IMG/VR virus record: IMGVR_UViG_3300035681_000125 | Location: 1 to 24,240 of that record | DNA length: 24,240 bases | Reading direction: 5' to 3' (one strand) | Source of the DNA: a virus | Shown: one piece after another, positions 1 to 17,187 of the stretch | How positions within the stretch are numbered: position 1 is the first letter of the stretch | Layout: each line of letters starts with the position of its first letter | Position numbers and translations under genes: made by a program | Notes under the pieces: model-generated | The model's input: only the letters and a program-made list of their open reading frames with translations | Databases searched by the model: none | What the model was told of the DNA's origin: nothing

Positions 1-630
1 GGATACTTCGGCGAGTCACCCAACACCAAGAAAGGCACGGCAGACCAGTATCTGCGAGCACAGGTACAGGGTGGGCCACGCAGACCTAAAGCATTCGAGC
101 GGCTGTTGATTAATCAAGGCGTGATGCCGCCCGGATACTTCGCCATCCCGACGAACTTCGCACCGAAGGACGCATTCGGCAATGTGCCAGCGGGTTACTA
201 CACTCGCGTGCTATCGCAACTGCAAATAGGCGATGAGTTCCAGCGAGCGAACAAGACACGAAAGACACGGCGCAAGACTCCGAAACCTAGTGACTCAAGC
301 CCGATAAAGAAGCGGGAGGAGTCCAAGCGCAAAGAGCAACGGCGACAGCAAACACCAGGCGCACCTCGCAAAGCGAAGAAGCGAGTAGCCTATCCGATGT
401 TCAACGTGTACCCAAAGCGTGAGAAGAATCGGCACCTAAAGCCCGGCATCTATGAACGGGTGAGCACTGGGTCTGGCAGCAAGGTGCGGCCCGTGTTCAT
501 CTATGTAAGCAATGCGCCGGTTTACAAGCAGCGGCTTAACTTCAACCGCATCGTGAGCGACACGGTGGCCGCGAGGCTGATCGCAAACTTCGAGGCTGGC
601 TTCCGGCTGGCCGATGCGACCAAGCGATGA
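1..630 (+). CDS. Phage protein of unknown function (5' end outside window)
   Basis: The reading frame is open from base 1 to the TGA at 628-630, so this is the C-terminal 209 residues of a longer protein. A TTG at 106 could be read as a start, but the open frame upstream (GYFGESPNTKKGTADQYLRA) continues the same composition and looks like real coding sequence. The visible part has an N-terminal segment rich in G, P, Q and R, a very basic low-complexity linker at about residues 80-130 (many K/R, TRKTRRKTPK), and a C-terminal block containing HLKPGIYERV and VRPVFIYVSNAPVYKQRL. The last block resembles unassigned proteins I associate with siphovirus morphogenesis, but I cannot give it a function. 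No membrane segment is visible. It sits upstream of the only intergenic gap in the window and probably ends the preceding transcription unit. Confidence 0.7.
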   Translation, partial: GYFGESPNTKKGTADQYLRAQVQGGPRRPKAFERLLINQGVMPPGYFAIPTNFAPKDAFGNVPAGYYTRVLSQLQIGDEFQRANKTRKTRRKTPKPSDSSPIKKREESKRKEQRRQQTPGAPRKAKKRVAYPMFNVYPKREKNRHLKPGIYERVSTGSGSKVRPVFIYVSNAPVYKQRLNFNRIVSDTVAARLIANFEAGFRLADATKR

Positions 631-651
631 GTTATGCACAAGTTATGCACA
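630..651. repeat. Two tandem 11-bp repeats matching the DnaA box
   Basis: The sequence AGTTATGCACA occurs twice back to back, at 630-640 and 641-651, with no mismatch. Each copy contains TTATGCACA (632-640 and 643-651), which fits the bacterial DnaA-box consensus TTATNCACA. The 11-bp period puts both boxes on the same face of the helix. The first copy starts on the last base of the upstream stop codon. Whether DnaA binds here is inference. Confidence 0.7.
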
Positions 652-746
652 CCTCGCGGGTCCTCCCAGGGGTATCGCATCTGGGGGTAATTCGGACCCC
701 GATGTTTTCCTAGCGACAGCAATTTACAAACGGATTTCGTTTCACC
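631..746. other. Sole intergenic region over 100 bases
   Basis: This 116-base gap contains the DnaA-like tandem repeats and the stem-loop, followed by about 45 bases without a recognisable motif. All later gaps are under 20 bases. It is therefore the natural place for the late-operon promoter and possibly for the packaging start site. Neither can be recognised from sequence alone. Confidence 0.5.
658..708 (+). terminator. Stem-loop with T-run, possible terminator of the upstream unit
   Basis: GGGTCC (658-663) can pair with GGACCC (694-699). Inside it, CCCAG (665-669) can pair with CTGGG (681-685), leaving an 11-base loop. The structure is followed by CGATGTTTT. This fits a rho-independent terminator for the gene ending at 630, although the T-run is short and offset from the stem. 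It could instead be a structured operator or part of a cos-like site, since the packaging genes follow. No convincing -35/-10 promoter could be picked between here and 747. Confidence 0.4.
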
Positions 747-1250
747 GTGAAAATCCAAATGGTCGACGTCGAGCGCGTGATCCCGTATGCGAGGAATCCG
801 CGCAAAAACGCAGCTGCGGTCGATAAGGTTGCCGCGTCTTTACGCGAGTTCGGTTTTCGACAACCCATAGTTACGGACGAAAATCTGACGGTCATCGTCG
901 GCCACACTAGATTGCTTGCGGCGAAAAAGTTAAGCCTCACGCAAGTTCCCGTCCACATCGCGGAAGGGCTGACTTCCGCACAGATCAAGGCTTATCGAAT
1001 CGCCGACAACCGAGTCGGCGAGGAAGCCGAGTGGGATAACGAACTACTACAAGTTGAGTTGCACGACATCGAATCAAAAGACTTCGACGTCGCACTGACA
1101 GGGTTTGATGGCGATGAGTTAAGCCGGATTATGTTCCCGCCCGACTTCTCGCCGGGAACCGAAGACGATCAAGGAAAACTCGACGAACTAGACCCGAAGT
1201 GGGTTTGCTGTCCTAACTGCCAAACAAAGTTCGATGCAAGAAAAGCCTAA
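747..1250 (+). CDS. ParB/sulfiredoxin-like domain protein with C-terminal CxxC
   Basis: This 167-residue protein opens with the ParB N-terminal (ParB/Srx nuclease-like) fold: a box-I-like IPYARNPR at 12-19, then FGFRQPIV at 35-42 and the box-II-like VGHTRLLAAKKL at 51-62. The usual ParB HTH and dimerisation domains are missing, so a role in plasmid partition is unlikely. Phage proteins of this size commonly sit beside DNA methylases or terminases, where they are thought to bind or nick DNA or act as accessory factors. The C-terminus ends with WVCCPNCQTKF, a single CxxC knuckle that could be half of a zinc site. GTG at 747 is chosen because it keeps the typical start before VDVERVIPY; ATG at 759 is the alternative. 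Its 3' end overlaps the Mom-like gene by 17 bases, suggesting translational coupling and a joint role in DNA modification. Confidence 0.8.
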   Translation: MKIQMVDVERVIPYARNPRKNAAAVDKVAASLREFGFRQPIVTDENLTVIVGHTRLLAAKKLSLTQVPVHIAEGLTSAQIKAYRIADNRVGEEAEWDNELLQVELHDIESKDFDVALTGFDGDELSRIMFPPDFSPGTEDDQGKLDELDPKWVCCPNCQTKFDARKA

Positions 1251-1914
1251 TCTTAAGATCGACTGGGCTACTCACGAGGCGGCAAAATACGCTTGCGAGA
1301 ATTGGCACTATAGCAAGTGTTTGCCAGTCGGCAAGTTAGTTAAAGTCGGAGCATGGGAAAATAACAAGTTTATTGGCGTTGTTGTTTTTGGCCGTGGCGC
1401 CACGCCAAATTTAGGGAAGCCATATAACTTAAATCAAGACGAATGCGTTGAACTGGTAAGGGTTGCTTTGACAAATCACTTTTACCCTGTTTCAAAAATT
1501 ATGGCGTTTGCAGTAAAGTTTTTAAAACGATCAAATTCAAATTTAAAACTTATAGTTTCATTTGCTGATCAGTCTCAAGGTCATCATGGCGGAATATATC
1601 AAGCAAACAACTGGGTATATACCGGAGCCGGATCGCCTGCTAAATTTTATCTTATCCACGGAAAGTTGACTCATCCACGATCAATAGGCGCAAAGGGGTT
1701 GGTGCAAAATTTAAATGGCGCAAAACAAATTGATGTAAATGCAAAAGCAATTGAAGTTCCTGGAAAACACAGATATTTGATGCCGCTTACTGAAGAAATT
1801 AGAATTAAGATCCAACACCTTGCAAAGCCATATCCAAAGCGTGTGACAAAGGCTCCTTCAGAGTTCCCCTCTGATAGCGGCGGGGCAGTACCGACCCACA
1901 CGCTCCACTCATGA
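1234..1914 (+). CDS. mom: Mom-family adenine modification protein
   Basis: This 226-residue protein resembles phage Mu Mom, a GNAT-fold enzyme that converts adenine in phage DNA to an N6-carbamoylmethyl form and so blocks host restriction. Family-like blocks are ENWHYSKCLPVGK (22-34), KFIGVVVFGRGA (45-56), CVELVRVAL (71-79) and SFADQSQGHHGGIYQANNW (109-127). The His-Tyr pair in the first block and the Asp in the last are plausible active-site or metal-binding residues by analogy with Mu Mom. The region after about 170 is not recognised and may be a DNA-contacting tail. The start overlaps the ParB-like gene by 17 bases, and the stop overlaps the terminase gene as ATGA. Base composition is strikingly A/T-rich (15 G or C in the 60 bases 1501-1560) against G/C-rich neighbours, which points to recent acquisition. 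The family call is confident; the exact modified base is inferred. Confidence 0.82.
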   Translation: MQEKPNLKIDWATHEAAKYACENWHYSKCLPVGKLVKVGAWENNKFIGVVVFGRGATPNLGKPYNLNQDECVELVRVALTNHFYPVSKIMAFAVKFLKRSNSNLKLIVSFADQSQGHHGGIYQANNWVYTGAGSPAKFYLIHGKLTHPRSIGAKGLVQNLNGAKQIDVNAKAIEVPGKHRYLMPLTEEIRIKIQHLAKPYPKRVTKAPSEFPSDSGGAVPTHTLHS

Positions 1915-2477
1915 GCGTAGATGTTCACGCTGTAGCAAAGGCGCTAAACCTCACACCGCGTCGCGTGCAGCAATTAAAGGCAGAGGGGATGCCGACAGTA
2001 GGCCGCGGTCAATACGAACTCGGCCCCTGCATGGCGTGGTATATCCGATATCTACAGGCTGCGCTGGAAAAGCGCGGGCCGAACGTCAACCCAGATACGC
2101 CCGACCTATTGGCCGAAAAGACTCGGTTGGCGCGAGAGCAAGGCGACAAACTTGCTATCGAGAACGCGATCAGCCGAGGCGAACTGGTGTACCTCGATGA
2201 CGTGGTAAATACTTGGGCCGACCATATATCGAGTGCTAAAGCGAAACTGCTGGCGATGCCGACGAAACTCGCCCCGCAGTTGGTGAACCAAACGAATGCA
2301 AACATCATCGCAGGACGTATCCGCGAGGAAGTCGACAACGCTCTCGTCGAACTCGCACAGGATACCTCTCACGTCGAGCGTATCGAAAGCATTGAGCCGA
2401 GCGGCGAGAACGTGGAACCCGCCACCGAAACTGACGATTTCGGAATGGGCGAATCGATACCGGAAACTATCGAGTGA
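1911..2477 (+). CDS. terS: Terminase small subunit, Nu1-like
   Basis: This 188-residue protein is the likely DNA-recognition subunit of the packaging motor. The N-terminus (VHAVAKALNLTPRRVQQLKAEG, residues 5-26) reads as a winged helix-turn-helix of the Nu1 type, followed by the wing segment GMPTVGRGQYELG. The middle (about 70-150) is predominantly helical and charged, as expected for self-association, and the acidic tail would contact the large subunit. Length is close to lambda Nu1 (181 residues). The ATG overlaps the Mom-like stop as ATGA, and the 3' end overlaps the large-subunit frame by at least 86 bases. Placement directly before a GpA-type large subunit supports the call. Confidence 0.85.
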   Translation: MSVDVHAVAKALNLTPRRVQQLKAEGMPTVGRGQYELGPCMAWYIRYLQAALEKRGPNVNPDTPDLLAEKTRLAREQGDKLAIENAISRGELVYLDDVVNTWADHISSAKAKLLAMPTKLAPQLVNQTNANIIAGRIREEVDNALVELAQDTSHVERIESIEPSGENVEPATETDDFGMGESIPETIE

Positions 2478-4203
2478 GAGCGCAGCCGAACCCGGCGTAT
2501 GGCGAACATCTCGAGCACCGTACCAACGCGGCGTTATGGATGCCGTTACGGATGAAACGGTCAAAGAGGTCTGGATTCAGAAATCCGCACAGGTAGGCTG
2601 GACGGAGATCCTCAACAACGTGATCGGGTATCACGTTCACCAAGACCCTGCGCCGATGCTGCTCGTGCAGCCGACGCTAGAGATGGCCGAGTCGTGGAGC
2701 AAAGACAGATTCGCACCGATGGTGCGGGACACGCCAGCACTGGCCGAGCGGATCGCAGACCCCAAGGCACGCGACAGCGGCAACACGCTGCTGCACAAGA
2801 AGTTCACCGGCGGGCATCTGACGGTGGCCGGAGCGAACAGCCCATCGGGCCTAGCCTCGCGGCCGATTCGGATCGTGCTATTCGATGAGGTGGACAGATA
2901 CCCATCGAGCGCGGGCACAGAGGGCGATCCGATCTCGCTGGGCCGTAAGCGAACGGCTACGTTTTGGAGTCGCAAAGTCTTGGCAGGATCGACCCCGACC
3001 ATCAAAGGATCGAGCCGCATCGAGGCCGGTTTTGAGTCGGGCGATCAGCGGTTCTATTATGTGCCATGCCCGCACTGCGGCGAGTTCCAGCGGCTCGTGT
3101 GGGCACAGGTTAAATGGCCCGAGGGCCAGCCAGAGTTAGCCGAGTACGTCTGTGTGGCGTGCGGCGCGATGCTGACCGAGGCGGACAAGGCGGAGATGTT
3201 ACAGGCTGGCGAGTGGCGCGGGAGCAAGCCATTCTCGGGTATCGCATCGTTCCACATAAGCGAGTTGTACTCTCCGTGGTCTACATGGGCGGAGATGGCG
3301 GTCGCGTTCATTCAAGCGAAAAGGTTTCCCGAAACGCTGCAAACGTGGATAAACACGGCACTTGGGGAAACCTACGAGGAACGCGGCGAACAGGTGGAGA
3401 CGGTAGGACTCGCGCAGCGACGCGAACCGTACACCGCACAGAGCATCCCACAACAGGTGCTCATGCTCACGGCTGGCGTGGACGTACAGGACGACCGGCT
3501 AGAGGTAACTATCGTCGGCTTCGGCAAGGACGAGGAGACATGGATTGTCGAGCACGGCGTGCTGCGCGGCGATCCCGGCAGCGATTCGCTGTGGCACGAC
3601 CTTGACGGATACATGGCTCGCAAACGCGAGACTGAAGACGGACGACTGCTACTGATCGAGGCCCAGGCCATCGACTCTGGCGGACACTTCACGCAACAAG
3701 TCTATGCCTACTGCGCTAAACGCAAAGCGCGGCGCGTGTGGGCGATCAAGGGAGCCGGTGGCTTCGGTCGGTTGATCTGGCCGAAGTCAGCGGGACGGGC
3801 AGGGAAAACCTCGGCGCAGGTTTTTATAGTCGGTGTTGATACAGCAAAAGATGTGCTGTACGGGCGCATGAAGCGCGTGCACCAACCGGGGGCGGGATAC
3901 ATTCACTTTCCCGTCTCGGTCGATGAGGTCTATTTTGACCAATTGACCGCCGAGACATTGATCTATCGCATGGTGCAGGGGCGGCGCGTGCGGTCTTATA
4001 AGCCGCGCTCCTCGGGCAGTCGCACGGAAGCCCTCGACTGCTTGGTCTACGCCTACGCAGCGTTCATAGGGCGCAACGGGCCGATGATATTGCCGAACCG
4101 CAAGGTCGAACCAGTTACCGAAACGCAAGTCACAGTACAACCGCAAAAACCACAACGTCGCCCCGTGCCTTCTCGCGGCGGGTGGATGAACGGATGGAGA
4201 TAG
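2296..4203 (+). CDS. terL: Terminase large subunit, lambda GpA family
   Basis: ATP-driven packaging motor and nuclease that cuts concatemeric DNA and pumps it into the prohead. The ATPase half has a variant Walker A (IQKSAQVGWTE, 94-104), a Walker B (RIVLFDEVD, 192-200) and the coupling segment AGSTPTIKGSSR. A zinc-knuckle pair, CPHC (258-261) and CVAC (286-289), lies between the domains as in GpA homologues. The RNase H-like nuclease half begins at LTAGVDVQDDRLEV (391-404), with the catalytic Asp in GVDVQ; a later acidic residue may lie in EALDCLVYAYAA near the end. The length of 635 residues matches lambda gpA (641). The start is uncertain: ATG 2296 gives a 182-base overlap with terS and an atypical Ser/Thr-rich leader, while TTG 2392 starts the protein just before the conserved RAARTWNPPPKLTISEWA. 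I consider 2392 at least as likely. Confidence 0.93.
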   Translation: MQTSSQDVSARKSTTLSSNSHRIPLTSSVSKALSRAARTWNPPPKLTISEWANRYRKLSSESAAEPGVWRTSRAPYQRGVMDAVTDETVKEVWIQKSAQVGWTEILNNVIGYHVHQDPAPMLLVQPTLEMAESWSKDRFAPMVRDTPALAERIADPKARDSGNTLLHKKFTGGHLTVAGANSPSGLASRPIRIVLFDEVDRYPSSAGTEGDPISLGRKRTATFWSRKVLAGSTPTIKGSSRIEAGFESGDQRFYYVPCPHCGEFQRLVWAQVKWPEGQPELAEYVCVACGAMLTEADKAEMLQAGEWRGSKPFSGIASFHISELYSPWSTWAEMAVAFIQAKRFPETLQTWINTALGETYEERGEQVETVGLAQRREPYTAQSIPQQVLMLTAGVDVQDDRLEVTIVGFGKDEETWIVEHGVLRGDPGSDSLWHDLDGYMARKRETEDGRLLLIEAQAIDSGGHFTQQVYAYCAKRKARRVWAIKGAGGFGRLIWPKSAGRAGKTSAQVFIVGVDTAKDVLYGRMKRVHQPGAGYIHFPVSVDEVYFDQLTAETLIYRMVQGRRVRSYKPRSSGSRTEALDCLVYAYAAFIGRNGPMILPNRKVEPVTETQVTVQPQKPQRRPVPSRGGWMNGWR

Positions 4204-9289: not shown

Positions 9290-11472
9290 CCGAGCGCATC
9301 ATCGTTGACGAAACTTTGCAATCGGTCGTCATTGAAGAATCAAACAACGAGGTTGTCGTTCGCACCGGCTGGCCCGATGGCGCGAAGAAAGGCGCGAACA
9401 GCGACATCACCTCGATGTCGGGGCTCACTGGCGGAGTTGCCACGCCCACATATATCGATTTCGCAGCGGCTGGTGCCACGGATGCCGAGCGCCGACTGGC
9501 GTGGAATCCCGACACGGGCACAGTGCAGATCGGCATGGTCGGCGGAAACGTACAGGCCGAACTCGCTCAGACGCTCTATGCCTATGTTCACAACGCTGAA
9601 GGATCGACGATTGCCAAGGGCAAGCCTGTCTATCTCTATGAAGCGACAGGCAACAAAGCATCGGTGAAACTGGCCTACAACACCACGGACGCGACCTCTG
9701 CCAAAACTTTTGGCCTCGCAGCCGAGAGCATCGCATCGGGCGCGAATGGGTTAGTCATCTGTCAAGGCGTGCTCGATAAGATCAACACGAGCGCATATAA
9801 CGAAGGCGACACTCTATACCTCGGCGCGACTGCTGGCACGCTTACGGCCACGAAGCCGAAAGCACCGAACCACATGGTTTATGTTGGTATCGTTGAGCGG
9901 GCCAATGCTGGAAACGGGCAGATTTATGTCCGCGTGCAAAACGGCTACGAACTGAACGAAATCCACGATGTGCAAATCAACTCGCCCGCCAATGGGCAGT
10001 TGATTATTTACGATGCCGCCACGAGCCTCTGGAAGAATGCCAACCTCACGGCGGGCACCGGCATCTCGATTACGAACGGCGCAGGGTCGATCACCATTTC
10101 CGCGCCGGAGAACGGCACGGTCACAAGCGTAGCAACCGGCACAGGATTGACGGGCGGCCCGATCACCTCGACGGGCACGATCAGCCTCGCCAACACAGCC
10201 GTCAGCGCAGGGTTATACGGCAGCGCGTCCGCTGTGCCGACCTTTACGGTGGACGCACAGGGCCGACTCACGGCGGCATCGAATACGAGCATCGCTATCG
10301 CTAACACAGCGGTTAGCGGCCTCGGTACGATGTCGACGCAGAATGCCAATAACGTGACGATCAGCGGCGGCTCGGTCTCTGGGATTACCGACCTTGCCAT
10401 CGCAGACGGTGGCACCGGAGCCTCGAACGCATCGACCGCGCTGTCTAACCTAGGCGGCGTACCCACAGGGCGCACCGTAAGCGCAGGGACAGGGCTTTCT
10501 GGCGGCGGAGACCTCTCGGCCAATAGAACCATAAGCCTCGCAAATACTGCCGTCACAGCGGCCTCGTATGGCTCTGCATCACAGGTTGCAACATTCACGG
10601 TAGACGCGCAGGGCAGACTCACCGCTGCGAGCAATACGTCGATCTCAATTGCTAACACGGCGGTTTCTGGTCTGGGCACCATGTCTACCCAGAATGCCAA
10701 CAGCGTCAGCATCTCCGGCGGTAGCGTTTCCGGCATTACCGATCTGGCCGTGGCTGATGGCGGAACAGGCGCATCGTCGGCCTCGGGCGCACGCACGAAC
10801 CTGTTGCCGACTTACACCAGCAACGCGGGCAAGGTGCTTGCCGTCAATGTCGGTGGCACGGATGTCGAGTGGATCTCGGCTGGCGGCGTGGGCACGGTCA
10901 CGAGCATTGATGTCTCGGGCGGCACGACTGGGCTGACCACATCCGGTGGCCCGATCACAAGCAGCGGCACCATTACGCTGGCCGGCACGCTGGCCGTTGC
11001 GAACGGCGGCACAGGATCGACCACAGCGGGCGCGGCTTTGACTGCTCTAGGTGCTGCGGCATCTGCCACGACCATCTCGGCTGGCACAGGGTTGAGCGGC
11101 GGCGGCGATCTGTCTGCGAATCGCACCATCTCGCTCGCCAATACCGCAGTGACGGCAGCGTCCTACGGTTCGGCGTCCCAAGTTGGGACATTCACCGTAG
11201 ACGCGCAGGGTCGATTGACTGCCGCATCGAACACGTCGATTGCGATTGCAAATACCGCAGTCAGTGGCCTTGGCACAATGTCGACGCAAAACTCCAATGC
11301 GGTAACCATTCAACCCGCAGCGTCGGCTACGCCAAGCAGCAACGGCGACATGGTGTTTGAGTTGACCGACAATTCCACGCTCACGATCAAGGTCAAAGGC
11401 AGCGACGGCACGGTTCGTGTGGTAGCCTTAACATTGACGACGACGGCGGAATCGTTCTTGAGGCTTGAGTAA
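9286..11472 (+). CDS. Repeat-rich fibre protein (candidate head/neck fibre)
   Basis: This 728-residue protein has an N-terminal globular part (about 1-250) beginning TERIIVDETLQSVVIEESNN, including YAYVHNAEGSTIAKGKPVYLYEATGNK and QIYVRVQNGYELNEIHDVQI. Its C-terminal shaft is built from repeats of two kinds: a DAQGRLTAASNTSIAIANTA type preceded by YGSAS-V--FTV, and a (A)DGGTGA-S-A---L type. Such repeats are common in phage tail fibres. It ends with a small domain (MVFELTDNSTLTIKVKGSDG) and lacks an obvious autochaperone. Start ATG 9286 is chosen for its ATGA overlap with the preceding gene; a start at 9256 would add ten atypical residues. Lying between portal and capsid protease, it is displaced from the usual fibre position at the tail end, so a head or neck fibre is plausible. 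Confidence 0.8.
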   Translation: MTERIIVDETLQSVVIEESNNEVVVRTGWPDGAKKGANSDITSMSGLTGGVATPTYIDFAAAGATDAERRLAWNPDTGTVQIGMVGGNVQAELAQTLYAYVHNAEGSTIAKGKPVYLYEATGNKASVKLAYNTTDATSAKTFGLAAESIASGANGLVICQGVLDKINTSAYNEGDTLYLGATAGTLTATKPKAPNHMVYVGIVERANAGNGQIYVRVQNGYELNEIHDVQINSPANGQLIIYDAATSLWKNANLTAGTGISITNGAGSITISAPENGTVTSVATGTGLTGGPITSTGTISLANTAVSAGLYGSASAVPTFTVDAQGRLTAASNTSIAIANTAVSGLGTMSTQNANNVTISGGSVSGITDLAIADGGTGASNASTALSNLGGVPTGRTVSAGTGLSGGGDLSANRTISLANTAVTAASYGSASQVATFTVDAQGRLTAASNTSISIANTAVSGLGTMSTQNANSVSISGGSVSGITDLAVADGGTGASSASGARTNLLPTYTSNAGKVLAVNVGGTDVEWISAGGVGTVTSIDVSGGTTGLTTSGGPITSSGTITLAGTLAVANGGTGSTTAGAALTALGAAASATTISAGTGLSGGGDLSANRTISLANTAVTAASYGSASQVGTFTVDAQGRLTAASNTSIAIANTAVSGLGTMSTQNSNAVTIQPAASATPSSNGDMVFELTDNSTLTIKVKGSDGTVRVVALTLTTTAESFLRLE
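10180..10344 (+). repeat. Fibre shaft repeat, copy 1
   Basis: 55 codons running from ISLANTAVSAGLYGSASAV to GLGTMSTQN. This is the most diverged copy in its first third (SAGL/SAVP in place of TAAS/SQVA), then almost identical in protein to the later two copies. Confidence 0.8.
10483..10695 (+). repeat. Fibre shaft repeat, copy 2
   Basis: 71 codons from AGTGLSGGGDLSANRTIS to GLGTMSTQN. The protein differs from copy 3 at only two residues, yet 49 of the 71 codons are synonymous alternatives (codon-by-codon hand count). Confidence 0.88.
11080..11292 (+). repeat. Fibre shaft repeat, copy 3
   Basis: 71 codons aligned without gaps to copy 2. The two amino-acid differences are Ala to Gly in the QV-TFTV segment and Ser to Ala in NTSI-IAN. 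Nearly all other differences are silent. Confidence 0.88.
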
Positions 11473-13871
11473 TGGCTGTTGACACAAAGCCTACCGAGGC
11501 AATGGCAGCAGAAGCCGCTCGCGGATTAGAGTGGCGCGAAGAGTTCGGACGCGGCGGCACAGAGGTCGGCGTTGCTCGTGCTCGGGACATTAAGAATCGA
11601 GCGAATCTTTCGCCCGAAACGATCCGAAGGATGGTGAGTTACTTTGCAAGACACGAAATCGACAAAGAAGCCGAGGGCTTCCGTCCGGGCGAAGAGGGCT
11701 ACCCGTCCGCAGGACGTATCGCGTGGGCACTCTGGGGCGGAGACCCCGGCCAGAGTTGGGCTAATCGAAAAAGCGCGGAACTGGATCGTGAAGATGAGGG
11801 ACGAAATATGGACAAGGTAGAAACAAGGCACGTCGTCGCTGTCGTCGAGGACGAGGCAACCGTTACCGTGACATTCGCCAAGTCGGAGTACGACATGGAC
11901 GAAAGCGAGGAAGCGGACGAGGCTATCGAGGCGCTGGAAGAAGCCGCCGAAGATGGCGAGGAAATCTTCGCCGAGGGCGAGCGTCCCAAGGATATGTACG
12001 GCAACGAACCGTATGAAGAGGACTACGCTGGCCCTGCCAAGCGCAAGGGGCCGACCGAGCGTGTATTCCGCTCGGCGATCTTTGAGCGTGCGTCCATCAT
12101 GGAAGACCAGCGTCGTGCGACGTTAGCCTTCTCGAGCGAGATGGCGGTCGACCGTGGCTGGGGAATGGAAATCCTCGACCACTCGCCCGGCTCAATCGAC
12201 ATGGAGTTTATTGGCAGTGGCCGTGCGCCGCTGCTTGTGGATCACGAGATGGCCGATCAAGTCGGCGTCGTGGAGCAGATCAGCCTCGGAGCAGACCGCG
12301 TGGCGCGGGCTGTCGTGCGCTTTGGGAAAAGTGCGCGAGCCGAGGAAATCTGGCAGGACGTAAAGGATGGAATACGGTCAAACGTATCTGTCGGTTACGT
12401 TATCAGCGAGATGGTATCGGACGGAAAGCAAGGAGACCGGGAGGTTTTCCGCGCAGTCAGTTGGATGCCGCTCGAAATCAGTATCGTATCTATCCCGGCA
12501 GATACCAGCGTCGGCGTTGGTCGTGCGATCAACACTGCGCCGGTTGCCGAACCTAAAATCATTGTCAAGGAGACAAAAATGTCTGACGAAATCAACAGCG
12601 TCCGTGAGGATGCAGCAAAGGCCGAACGCGCTCGCGTTTCGGCGATTATGGATCTGGCCTCGCGTCACAACCATCGCGAGTTCGGCGAGTCGGCGATTCG
12701 TGACGGAGCCTCGATCGAGCAGTTCCGTGGCGCGTTGCTCGACAAGGTGGCCTCCAAGCCGCTGAACGTTGACCACGAGGTCGGCCTCTCCGATAAGGAA
12801 GTGCGTTCGTTCTCGTTCGTCCGTGCGATCAAGGCTCTGTCGAACCCGCAGGATCGTCGCGCCCAAGAGGACGCGGCTTTCGAGTTCGAAGTGTCCGAAG
12901 CCGCCGCGAAGAAGGAAGGCCGCACCTCACGCGGTCTCTTGATTCCGGTTGATGTGCTGTACGGGAAGCGCGATCTGACCACCTCGACGGCCTCTGGCAC
13001 GGCGAAGGCGGGCAACCTCGTTGCGACCGATCTGCTGGCTGCGTCGTTCATCGACGTGCTGCGTAACAAGATGGTGCTCAACACCCTCGGCGCGCAGTTC
13101 CTCACGGGCCTCAACGGTAACGTTGCCATCCCGCGCAAGACCTCGGCTTCTTCGGCCTACTGGGTCGCCGAGAACAGCGCACCGACGGAGAGCACCAACG
13201 CTCCGGCGTTCGATCAAGTCACGATGTCGCCGAAGACCCTCGGTGCCTACGTTGACATCAGCCGCCGCTTGATGCTCCAGTCGTCGCTTGACATCGAGAA
13301 CCTCGTCCGCAATGACTTGGCTACCTCGATTGCCGTGGCGATGGACGGTGCTGCGGTCGCTGGCTCGGGCAGCAACAAGCCGACCGGCGTGCTCAACACG
13401 TCTGGCATTGGCTCGGTGACGCTCGGCACGAACGGTGCTGCGCCGACTTGGGCGATGGTGGTGAACCTCGTGAAGGAAGTGGAGACGGACAACGCGTTGA
13501 CCGGCTCTGCGGCGTTCCTCACGAACGGACAGGTGAAGGCGAAACTCTCCACGACCTCTCGGCAGACGAGCGGAGTGGAAGGCAACTTCATCCTCGGCCC
13601 GGATATGGCGAACCTGTACGGCTACCCGATCTACGTTTCGCAGCAGGTTCCGTCGAACCTCACGAAGGGTTCGGGTTCCAGCCTCTCGGCCATGCTGTTT
13701 GGTGTGTGGAGCGATCTGCTCATCGGCCAGTGGTCGGGTATCGACATCCTCGTCGATCAGTACAGCGGTTCGAATGCCGGTACGGTGCGCGTCGTGGCGT
13801 TCCACGATTGCGACTTCGCCGTGCGGCACCCCGAGTCGTTCGCCGAGTGCAACGAGATCGTCACGACCTAA
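11472..13871 (+). CDS. Capsid maturation protease fused to HK97-fold major capsid protein
   Basis: This 799-residue frame has three parts. Residues about 17-103 form an N-terminal domain (VARARDIKNRANLSPETIRRM, YFARHEIDK, RIAWALWGGDPGQSWANRK) known from phage protease leaders. After an acidic linker (about 135-188, many E/D), residues 196-360 form an HK97-type prohead serine protease with likely catalytic His258 (LLVDHEM), Ser306 (SNVSVGY) and an acidic residue in PLEISIVSIPAD. From about 370 on is the HK97-fold major capsid protein: helical delta region to about 480, then GLLIPVDVLYGKRDL, GNVAIPRKTSASSAYWVAEN, GAYVDISRRLMLQSS, GSGSNKPTGVLNTSGI and GYPIYVSQQVP. Cleavage after assembly would free the shell subunit. 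Shine-Dalgarno sequences lie before in-frame ATGs at 11808 and 12579, so shorter products are likely. The start overlaps the fibre stop as TAATG. Confidence 0.93.
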   Translation: MAVDTKPTEAMAAEAARGLEWREEFGRGGTEVGVARARDIKNRANLSPETIRRMVSYFARHEIDKEAEGFRPGEEGYPSAGRIAWALWGGDPGQSWANRKSAELDREDEGRNMDKVETRHVVAVVEDEATVTVTFAKSEYDMDESEEADEAIEALEEAAEDGEEIFAEGERPKDMYGNEPYEEDYAGPAKRKGPTERVFRSAIFERASIMEDQRRATLAFSSEMAVDRGWGMEILDHSPGSIDMEFIGSGRAPLLVDHEMADQVGVVEQISLGADRVARAVVRFGKSARAEEIWQDVKDGIRSNVSVGYVISEMVSDGKQGDREVFRAVSWMPLEISIVSIPADTSVGVGRAINTAPVAEPKIIVKETKMSDEINSVREDAAKAERARVSAIMDLASRHNHREFGESAIRDGASIEQFRGALLDKVASKPLNVDHEVGLSDKEVRSFSFVRAIKALSNPQDRRAQEDAAFEFEVSEAAAKKEGRTSRGLLIPVDVLYGKRDLTTSTASGTAKAGNLVATDLLAASFIDVLRNKMVLNTLGAQFLTGLNGNVAIPRKTSASSAYWVAENSAPTESTNAPAFDQVTMSPKTLGAYVDISRRLMLQSSLDIENLVRNDLATSIAVAMDGAAVAGSGSNKPTGVLNTSGIGSVTLGTNGAAPTWAMVVNLVKEVETDNALTGSAAFLTNGQVKAKLSTTSRQTSGVEGNFILGPDMANLYGYPIYVSQQVPSNLTKGSGSSLSAMLFGVWSDLLIGQWSGIDILVDQYSGSNAGTVRVVAFHDCDFAVRHPESFAECNEIVTT
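11796..11810 (+). promoter_or_regulatory. Possible internal ribosome binding site for protease segment
   Basis: GAGGGA (11796-11801) stands 6 bases before an in-frame ATG at 11808 (MDKVETRHVV, residue 113). Initiation here would give a protease-capsid product without the N-terminal domain. Confidence 0.4.
12567..12581 (+). promoter_or_regulatory. Internal ribosome binding site for free major capsid protein
   Basis: A full AAGGAG (12567-12572), 6 bases before the in-frame ATG at 12579 (MSDEINSV, residue 370), falls exactly at the protease/capsid boundary. A product starting here would be a 430-residue major capsid protein. This is one of the best Shine-Dalgarno sequences in the window. Confidence 0.65.
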
Positions 13872-17026: not shown

Positions 17027-17187
17027 TAGAGGACGGGCATCTCCGAGCGATTTATGCTCTCGCGCTACGGCTGCACGTCCTCCCCGAGCAAGTTTTTGAG
17101 ATGACAGAGAGCGACTTCTACCATCTTCTGGCGGCCTGTAAGTTGGAAGCGGAAGAGCAGGAGAAATCATGGCGCAAGCACAAGTAG
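16670..17187 (+). CDS. Tail assembly chaperone fusion gpGT (by -1 frameshift)
   Basis: Slippage at 17017-17023 shifts ribosomes to the -1 frame, which continues from CTA 17023 to TAG 17185-17187. The product is the 118-residue gpG-like part plus about 54 residues (LIEDGHLRAIYALALRLHVL, then EMTESDFYHLLAACKLEAEE). The T segment is helical and acidic/basic at its end, as in other phages, where it bridges to the tail tube protein. It has no start codon of its own and ends 19 bases inside the tape measure gene. Strong evidence: canonical heptamer, open -1 frame with coding-like composition, correct neighbours. Confidence 0.9.
17017..17082 (+). promoter_or_regulatory. Programmed -1 frameshift signal with downstream structure
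   Basis: The heptamer A AAA AAC occupies 17017-17023 with the zero frame reading AAA AAC. Five bases downstream, GAGGACG (17029-17035) pairs perfectly with CGTCCTC (17076-17082). Within the loop, CCGAGCG (17043-17049) can pair with CGCT-A-CGG (17063-17070), with one bulged A. Both stems would stall the ribosome. Confidence 0.88.

Follow-up and report, generated by a model that had tools for sequence, protein, structure and literature searches.

Ahead of its packaging genes, the phage analysed here (referred to as the window, which at 24,240 bp is an entire IMG/VR record) carries AGTTATGCACA twice as a perfect head-to-tail tandem (630–640 and 641–651), which raises the question why sequences resembling binding sites for the replication initiator DnaA should be present at this position. 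The two perfect 11-bp copies with a DnaA-box-like core and an 11-bp period, as given in a preliminary description of this DNA, were confirmed, and base 630 was found to be shared with the upstream ORF, whose TGA stop ends on it. Both TTATGCACA 9-mers lie on the same strand and perfectly match the DnaA-box consensus TTATNCACA, a consensus assumed here to hold for the DnaA of the host. Over both strands of the record, this pair accounts for all perfect TTATNCACA matches, and the motif read backwards (as a control) has none in the 24,240 bp. When the window was modelled as a first-order Markov chain, 0.42 perfect boxes were expected per window, and 0 of 300 simulated windows contained a double box (with a 2–3 bp gap). 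The 2-bp gap of the pair corresponds to the arrangement of two boxes 2–3 bp apart that characterizes a double DnaA box (PMC11317965). Contrary to the preliminary description, a second gap above 100 bp exists besides the surrounding one (631–746; 116 bp), because 17027–17168 also is without a listed plus-strand ORF when ORFs of at least 50 aa are counted.

The gap itself is almost certainly a lambda-type cos site, in which the DnaA box pair is followed by cosQ, cosN, an R3-like TerS site and the packaging genes (Table 1). The cosQ and cosN elements, which span from 7 to 46 bp to the right of the boxes, had been overlooked, while the suggestion that the repeats mark a packaging site agrees with their position on its flank.

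Table 1. Coordinates of the cos region and its flanking genes in the window.
Feature	Position	Strand	Remarks
PHROG 1924 (labelled minor tail protein), 3′ part	1..630	+	last gene of mature genome
Putative DnaA box 1, TTATGCACA	632..640	+	first half of candidate double DnaA box
Putative DnaA box 2, TTATGCACA	643..651	+	2 bp from box 1, 6 bp from cosQ
cosQ, GGGTCCT (packaging-termination signal)	658..664	+	same 7-mer at lambda right end
cosQ-to-cosN spacer, 21 nt	665..685	+	20–23 nt in 123 sites; lambda 23 nt
cosN cohesive end, 12-nt 5′ overhang GGTAATTCGGAC	686..697	+	contig starts/ends of relatives
R3-like predicted TerS site TTTCGTTTC (cosB)	735..743	+	base 50 of left end; conserved in relatives
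ParB-N-domain protein	747..1250	+	first gene of mature genome
Mom-like DNA-modification protein	1234..1914	+	Pfam Mom 2.8e-47
Terminase small subunit (TerS)	1911..2477	+	PHROG 57
Terminase large subunit (TerL), lambda gpA type	2296..4203	+	Pfam GpA_ATPase and GpA_nuclease; true start probably inside this ORF

The cosQ letters, which we take to be GGGTCCT as in the lambda record (J02459, where this 7-mer stands 23 nt before the end), were found 20–23 nt ahead of GGTAATTCGGAC in at least 119 IMG/VR stretches, and a spacer of this length was counted in 123 sites. Among relatives found via their ParB-like protein, the contigs of L003, L005 and L006 begin exactly at this 12-mer, and those of L004 and L007 within 1 nt of it. 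Another 15 contigs terminate exactly with it, including L019 and L040, which are near-identical to the first 697 bp of the window, and in L153 the sequence past the cohesive end goes directly into AGATCGGAAGAG, an Illumina adapter. The occurrence of one 12-mer at both kinds of contig end fits a filled-in 12-nt 5′ cohesive end, as judged from the assembled contigs of relatives, and the nicks would fall at 685/686 (top strand) and 697/698 (bottom strand). Many IMG/VR contigs stop exactly after GGGTCCT, 20–23 nt and a 12-nt end, i.e., at physical genome ends, which makes this pattern a practical marker for calling complete cos phages in metagenomic contigs. An initial placement of cosN at 651–660 (ACCTCGCGGG, based on its resemblance to lambda cosN) was ruled out by the contig ends.

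The locus thereby combines 12-nt 5′ ends at a defined cosN, a cosQ 20–23 bp to its left, and a gpA-type TerL with adjacent TerS. In work by Feiss and colleagues (PMC4669245, PMC9026076 and PMC4856287), a 7-bp cosQ is described as required for packaging termination, next to 12-base 5′ ends and an R3 site at bp 48–65 (i.e., bp 50–65 in lambda and 48–60 in N15; PMC9026076). At base 50, the sequence TTTC[AG][CT]TTC is present in 16 of the 16 listed relatives (the window itself not counted) whose TerS is of the window type or for which nothing beyond the left end is known, and it is absent from L020, L106 and L111, whose TerS is 35–43% identical to that of the window. This predicted TerS site thus appears to vary together with TerS type. 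N15-type cos sites lack IHF site I1 and R2/R1. The same kind of module is carried by Pseudomonas phages Ostro and CF140a and Paracoccus phage Psul1, located ahead of terS in Ostro and Psul1 and at the record end in CF140a. A comparison of the cos pattern with genome contigs gave no match, and in L331 a DnaA pair was found close to GGGTCCT but without the cosN.

Since the window crosses the joined ends, the mature molecule should start at 686 and, after the rest of the genome, end at 697, and this placement of cos puts the boxes at the right-hand end of the mature phage DNA. The nearly complete linear genome of a relative (G003, or L333; 35,250 bp) indeed has its left end at cosN, and the box pair, cosQ and cosN at its right end. 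Positions 1–12 of this genome read GGGAAAAAGGAG in place of the GGTAATTCGGAC overhang, and there are 10 additional bases at the right end, reflecting either an end mismatch or an assembly artefact. The right arm, as seen in L019, encodes lysozyme, a lambda-O-like initiator (PHROG 678, 1.4e-13), a Q-like antiterminator, Sak annealing protein, YqaJ exonuclease and HNH endonuclease. Between cos and terS (747–1914), the genes for the ParB-like and Mom-like proteins vary independently, with ParB being 41–47% identical where TerS/TerL are 70–97% identical, and Mom 29–66% where present. Elsewhere in the window, a single 799-aa ORF (11472–13871) encodes both prohead protease and major capsid domains.

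The pair, its 2-bp gap and its 6-bp distance to cosQ are kept in L019, L020, L025, L029, L038 and L040. In L025 and L029 the upstream sequence differs, yet both boxes and both spacings are unchanged. Box differences among relatives fall at the N position of the consensus (G, C or T), and this variability, together with the changing flanks, points to DnaA rather than to a phage protein. The earlier reading of the repeats as DnaA boxes thus gained support from this N-position variation, from the double-box geometry and from the retention of the pair in diverged relatives; moreover, these boxes are the sole ones of their kind in records of 24–35 kb. Two refuting conditions named in the preliminary description, i.e., lack of conservation and many equal matches elsewhere, were thereby checked and did not apply. 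Only one box, at 7 bp from cosQ, is left in L156 and L176, L062/L077/L166 retain the 2-bp gap in a degenerate pair (TTATCCCCA and TTATCTACA), and boxes are missing from the cos of L044, L050, L074, L088, L133 and L150 (in L050 despite a 94%-identical TerS). The wider group, as represented by 12 records (230 kb), has 18 perfect boxes, every one of which adjoins cosQ. The tandem itself was found in 25 contigs, six of which form the cos group of the window (i.e., the six relatives that keep both spacings), the remainder carrying DnaA-box clusters or pairs in other settings. Since the tandem also occurs in such settings, it is unspecific by itself, and it is the position beside cosQ that is specific. 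L041 and L043 have an intergenic tandem TTATGCACA pair, with no GGGTCCT in the adjoining sequence shown.

Box frequencies were further determined in wider collections of cos sites. In 82 non-redundant sites gathered regardless of DnaA, the 60 bp to the left of cosQ hold seven perfect boxes (1.42/kb) vs. 11 in all 768 kb (0.014/kb), corresponding to an approximately 100-fold enrichment over the surrounding DNA; the next 440 bp contain none, and one is located within 60 bp right of cosN. Under a stricter redundancy cut, a box was present in 4 of 76 sites vs. 0.047 expected (shuffle mean). Boxes are carried by only ca. 5% of such cos sites and are absent from lambda's own cos. Because they are missing from most lambda-type cos sites, and from near relatives of the window, they must be optional. 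Among 81 sites with other cohesive ends, boxes at three sites account for 8 of the 18 boxes in 755 kb, and since these three are mutually related (the L180–L183 group), they add only one more lineage.

A targeted scan for a box within 25 bp of GGGTCCTYCC returned 18 stretches in forward and 33 in reverse orientation, vs. five matches (none with TerL nearby) for the reversed-motif control. The matches in L173/L177, where GGGTCCT overlaps antisense TerL, and in L179, where TerL was not found, were discarded as false positives. Boxed lineages with TerL to the right comprise L171, L172/L174, L168, L178, L185, L193, L170/L175 and the L180 group. The TerL of L171 is 87% and its TerS 37.5% identical to those of the window, with a different cosN, and the TerL beside the boxed cosQ of L168, L172, L178, L185 and L193 is only 33–42% identical, so that boxes adjoin cosQ in several distant lineages. 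In the whole records of 19 contigs (646 kb) that were selected for having boxes, 42 of the 46 boxes are at cosQ. The nearest box is 2–20 bp from cosQ in either orientation, with 2-bp pairs in the window group and (reversed) in the L180 group, and three boxes with 3-bp spacing in L193. According to Stringer, Fitzgerald and Wade (PMC11317965), the boxes that E. coli DnaA occupies in vivo are predominantly pairs with a spacing of 2 or 3 bp.

Two side observations concern other phage ends. The 83-kb contig IMGVR_UViG_3300047673_000158 (L180/L202) has two DnaA-boxed cos sites ca. 44 kb apart, as if it held two related prophages in one record. Furthermore, DnaA-box arrays or a double box are present at or near the ends of phages outside the group, i.e., Shigella phage VB_Ship_A7 (L339; 1–250), Vibrio phage BD1 (L337; last 160 bp) and Microbacterium phage Squash (L338; near 340). 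One of these phages is a T7-like Berlinvirus, and boxes in such positions may be a wider theme.

The best overall explanation is that the pair is a double DnaA box with which cos is flanked on its left side, to which we assign a probability of roughly 60%. Judging from the sequence, binding of the pair by host DnaA is quite probable. Since replication is the classic role of DnaA, the boxes might alternatively serve replication at the joined ends, as a secondary origin or as a site for loading DnaB, and thereby perhaps supply rolling-circle replication at a late stage. Help from host DnaA is conceivable, as a scan of right-arm ORFs did not reveal a P-like helicase loader. Nevertheless, the right arm encodes its own lambda-O-like initiator, no skew minimum is present at cos in either the 35-kb relative or the window, and the tight, repeated adjacency to cosQ would be left unexplained, making such a use rather unlikely. 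A replication origin at the boxes, as raised in the preliminary description, likewise finds no skew inflection, and by inspection the flanks are G+C-rich, with no AT-rich unwinding element to be seen.

DnaA is also a known transcription factor (PMC11317965), and transcription across cos is implied by the positions of a Q-like gene (upstream) and of the late genes (downstream). In the circular genome, DnaA could regulate or road-block this transcription in the stretch that separates the packaging operon from the right-end gene. This is unlikely as well, given that no promoter or promoter-like site was found beside the boxes, that their orientation is variable, and that they hug cosQ instead of a gene start; a link to late gene expression, proposed earlier, is not supported. 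Two further candidates were rejected, i.e., an RNA element (Rfam matches not exceeding chance, and folding no better than that of shuffles; z = 0.00) and a small ORF starting in the repeats (627–713; no clear ribosome-binding site by reading, and frame lost in L025/L029).

That the repeat is a functionless product of chance or hitch-hiking would accord with its absence from most cos sites and several close relatives, but is improbable in view of the local enrichment, the recurrence in distant lineages, the spacing that is conserved while the flanks of L025 and L029 diverge, and the exclusivity in whole records. Finally, the repeats lie within cos and lambda's cosB TerS sites are also repeated (PMC9026076), but a leftward cosB extension bound by TerS is very improbable and largely refuted, since the boxes are found unchanged next to two TerS types that are unrelated (L020 and L171, with 35% and 37.5% identity), are lacking in L050 with its near-identical TerS, and do not covary with TerS as the right-hand R3-like site does, so that boxes independent of TerS type are not terminase sites.

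Returning to a double DnaA box on the flank of cos, the chances that the pair has some cos-linked role appear about even. As packaging proceeds from left to right on the concatemer, the motor would meet the boxes just ahead of cosQ at each genome end, and hence before cosQ itself. A DnaA dimer bound 2–20 bp before cosQ in either orientation could then slow or hold the motor in the manner of a road-block, and a slowed motor would terminate more often at cosQ. The occurrence of both orientations and of variable distances suits such a road-block better than a rigid protein contact. In lambda, portal changes reportedly suppress cosQ mutations (a title cited in PMC7617512), which would make termination tunable from outside cosQ, and this suppression may work by slowing. 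Pausing of the motor by bound DnaA before the termination signal is the mechanism we favour, though it is a somewhat doubtful proposal. Alternatively, the state of DnaA could gate cutting, or DnaA could assist cos otherwise. More broadly, it is possible, though only tentatively proposed, that a minority of lambda-type cos phages, recurring in different lineages, make use of host DnaA as a dedicated co-factor or gate of cos; bound to double boxes directly left of cosQ, it would tune termination or link cutting to replication state.

If these boxes are bound, a host replication initiator would sit at a phage packaging-termination signal, recurrently and in distant lineages. If it moreover acts at cosQ, DnaA would be a new host packaging factor beside IHF, would directly link replication state to genome cutting, and would have a role outside replication and transcription. 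According to PMC4856287, cosQ must be recognised for the motor to stop (the motor running on without it), and how the motor knows to stop there is described as still debated; DnaA-boxed cos sites offer natural variants for probing this. In the open-access literature, no description was found of DnaA boxes joined with cos or cohesive ends in phages, an absence that is weak evidence for the novelty of a cos site of the lambda type to which a double DnaA box is attached.

Compared with known systems, the locus shares with lambda cos a GGGTCCT cosQ (21 nt before a 12-nt 5′ cohesive end vs. 23 nt in lambda), a TerS-site-like motif around base 50 of the left end and a GpA-type terminase to the right, whereas the overhang is different, ParB-like and Mom genes intervene between cos and terS, and the double DnaA box flanking cosQ has no counterpart in lambda. 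The simple cosB of phage N15 likewise has a single R3-like site close to base 50, and the first gene follows cos at a short distance there too, but N15 begins with terS, and DnaA boxes are not described in the N15 literature found. The double DnaA boxes of E. coli (e.g., purH, mioC and mutH/DARS2; PMC11317965) also consist of two same-strand boxes 2–3 bp apart, but regulate chromosomal genes or DnaA activity, whereas the pair described here abuts a phage packaging signal. Lastly, IHF site I1 of lambda cosB also is a site for a host DNA-binding protein within cos, but it is located right of cosN, between R3 and R2, whereas the DnaA boxes of the window are located left of cosQ.
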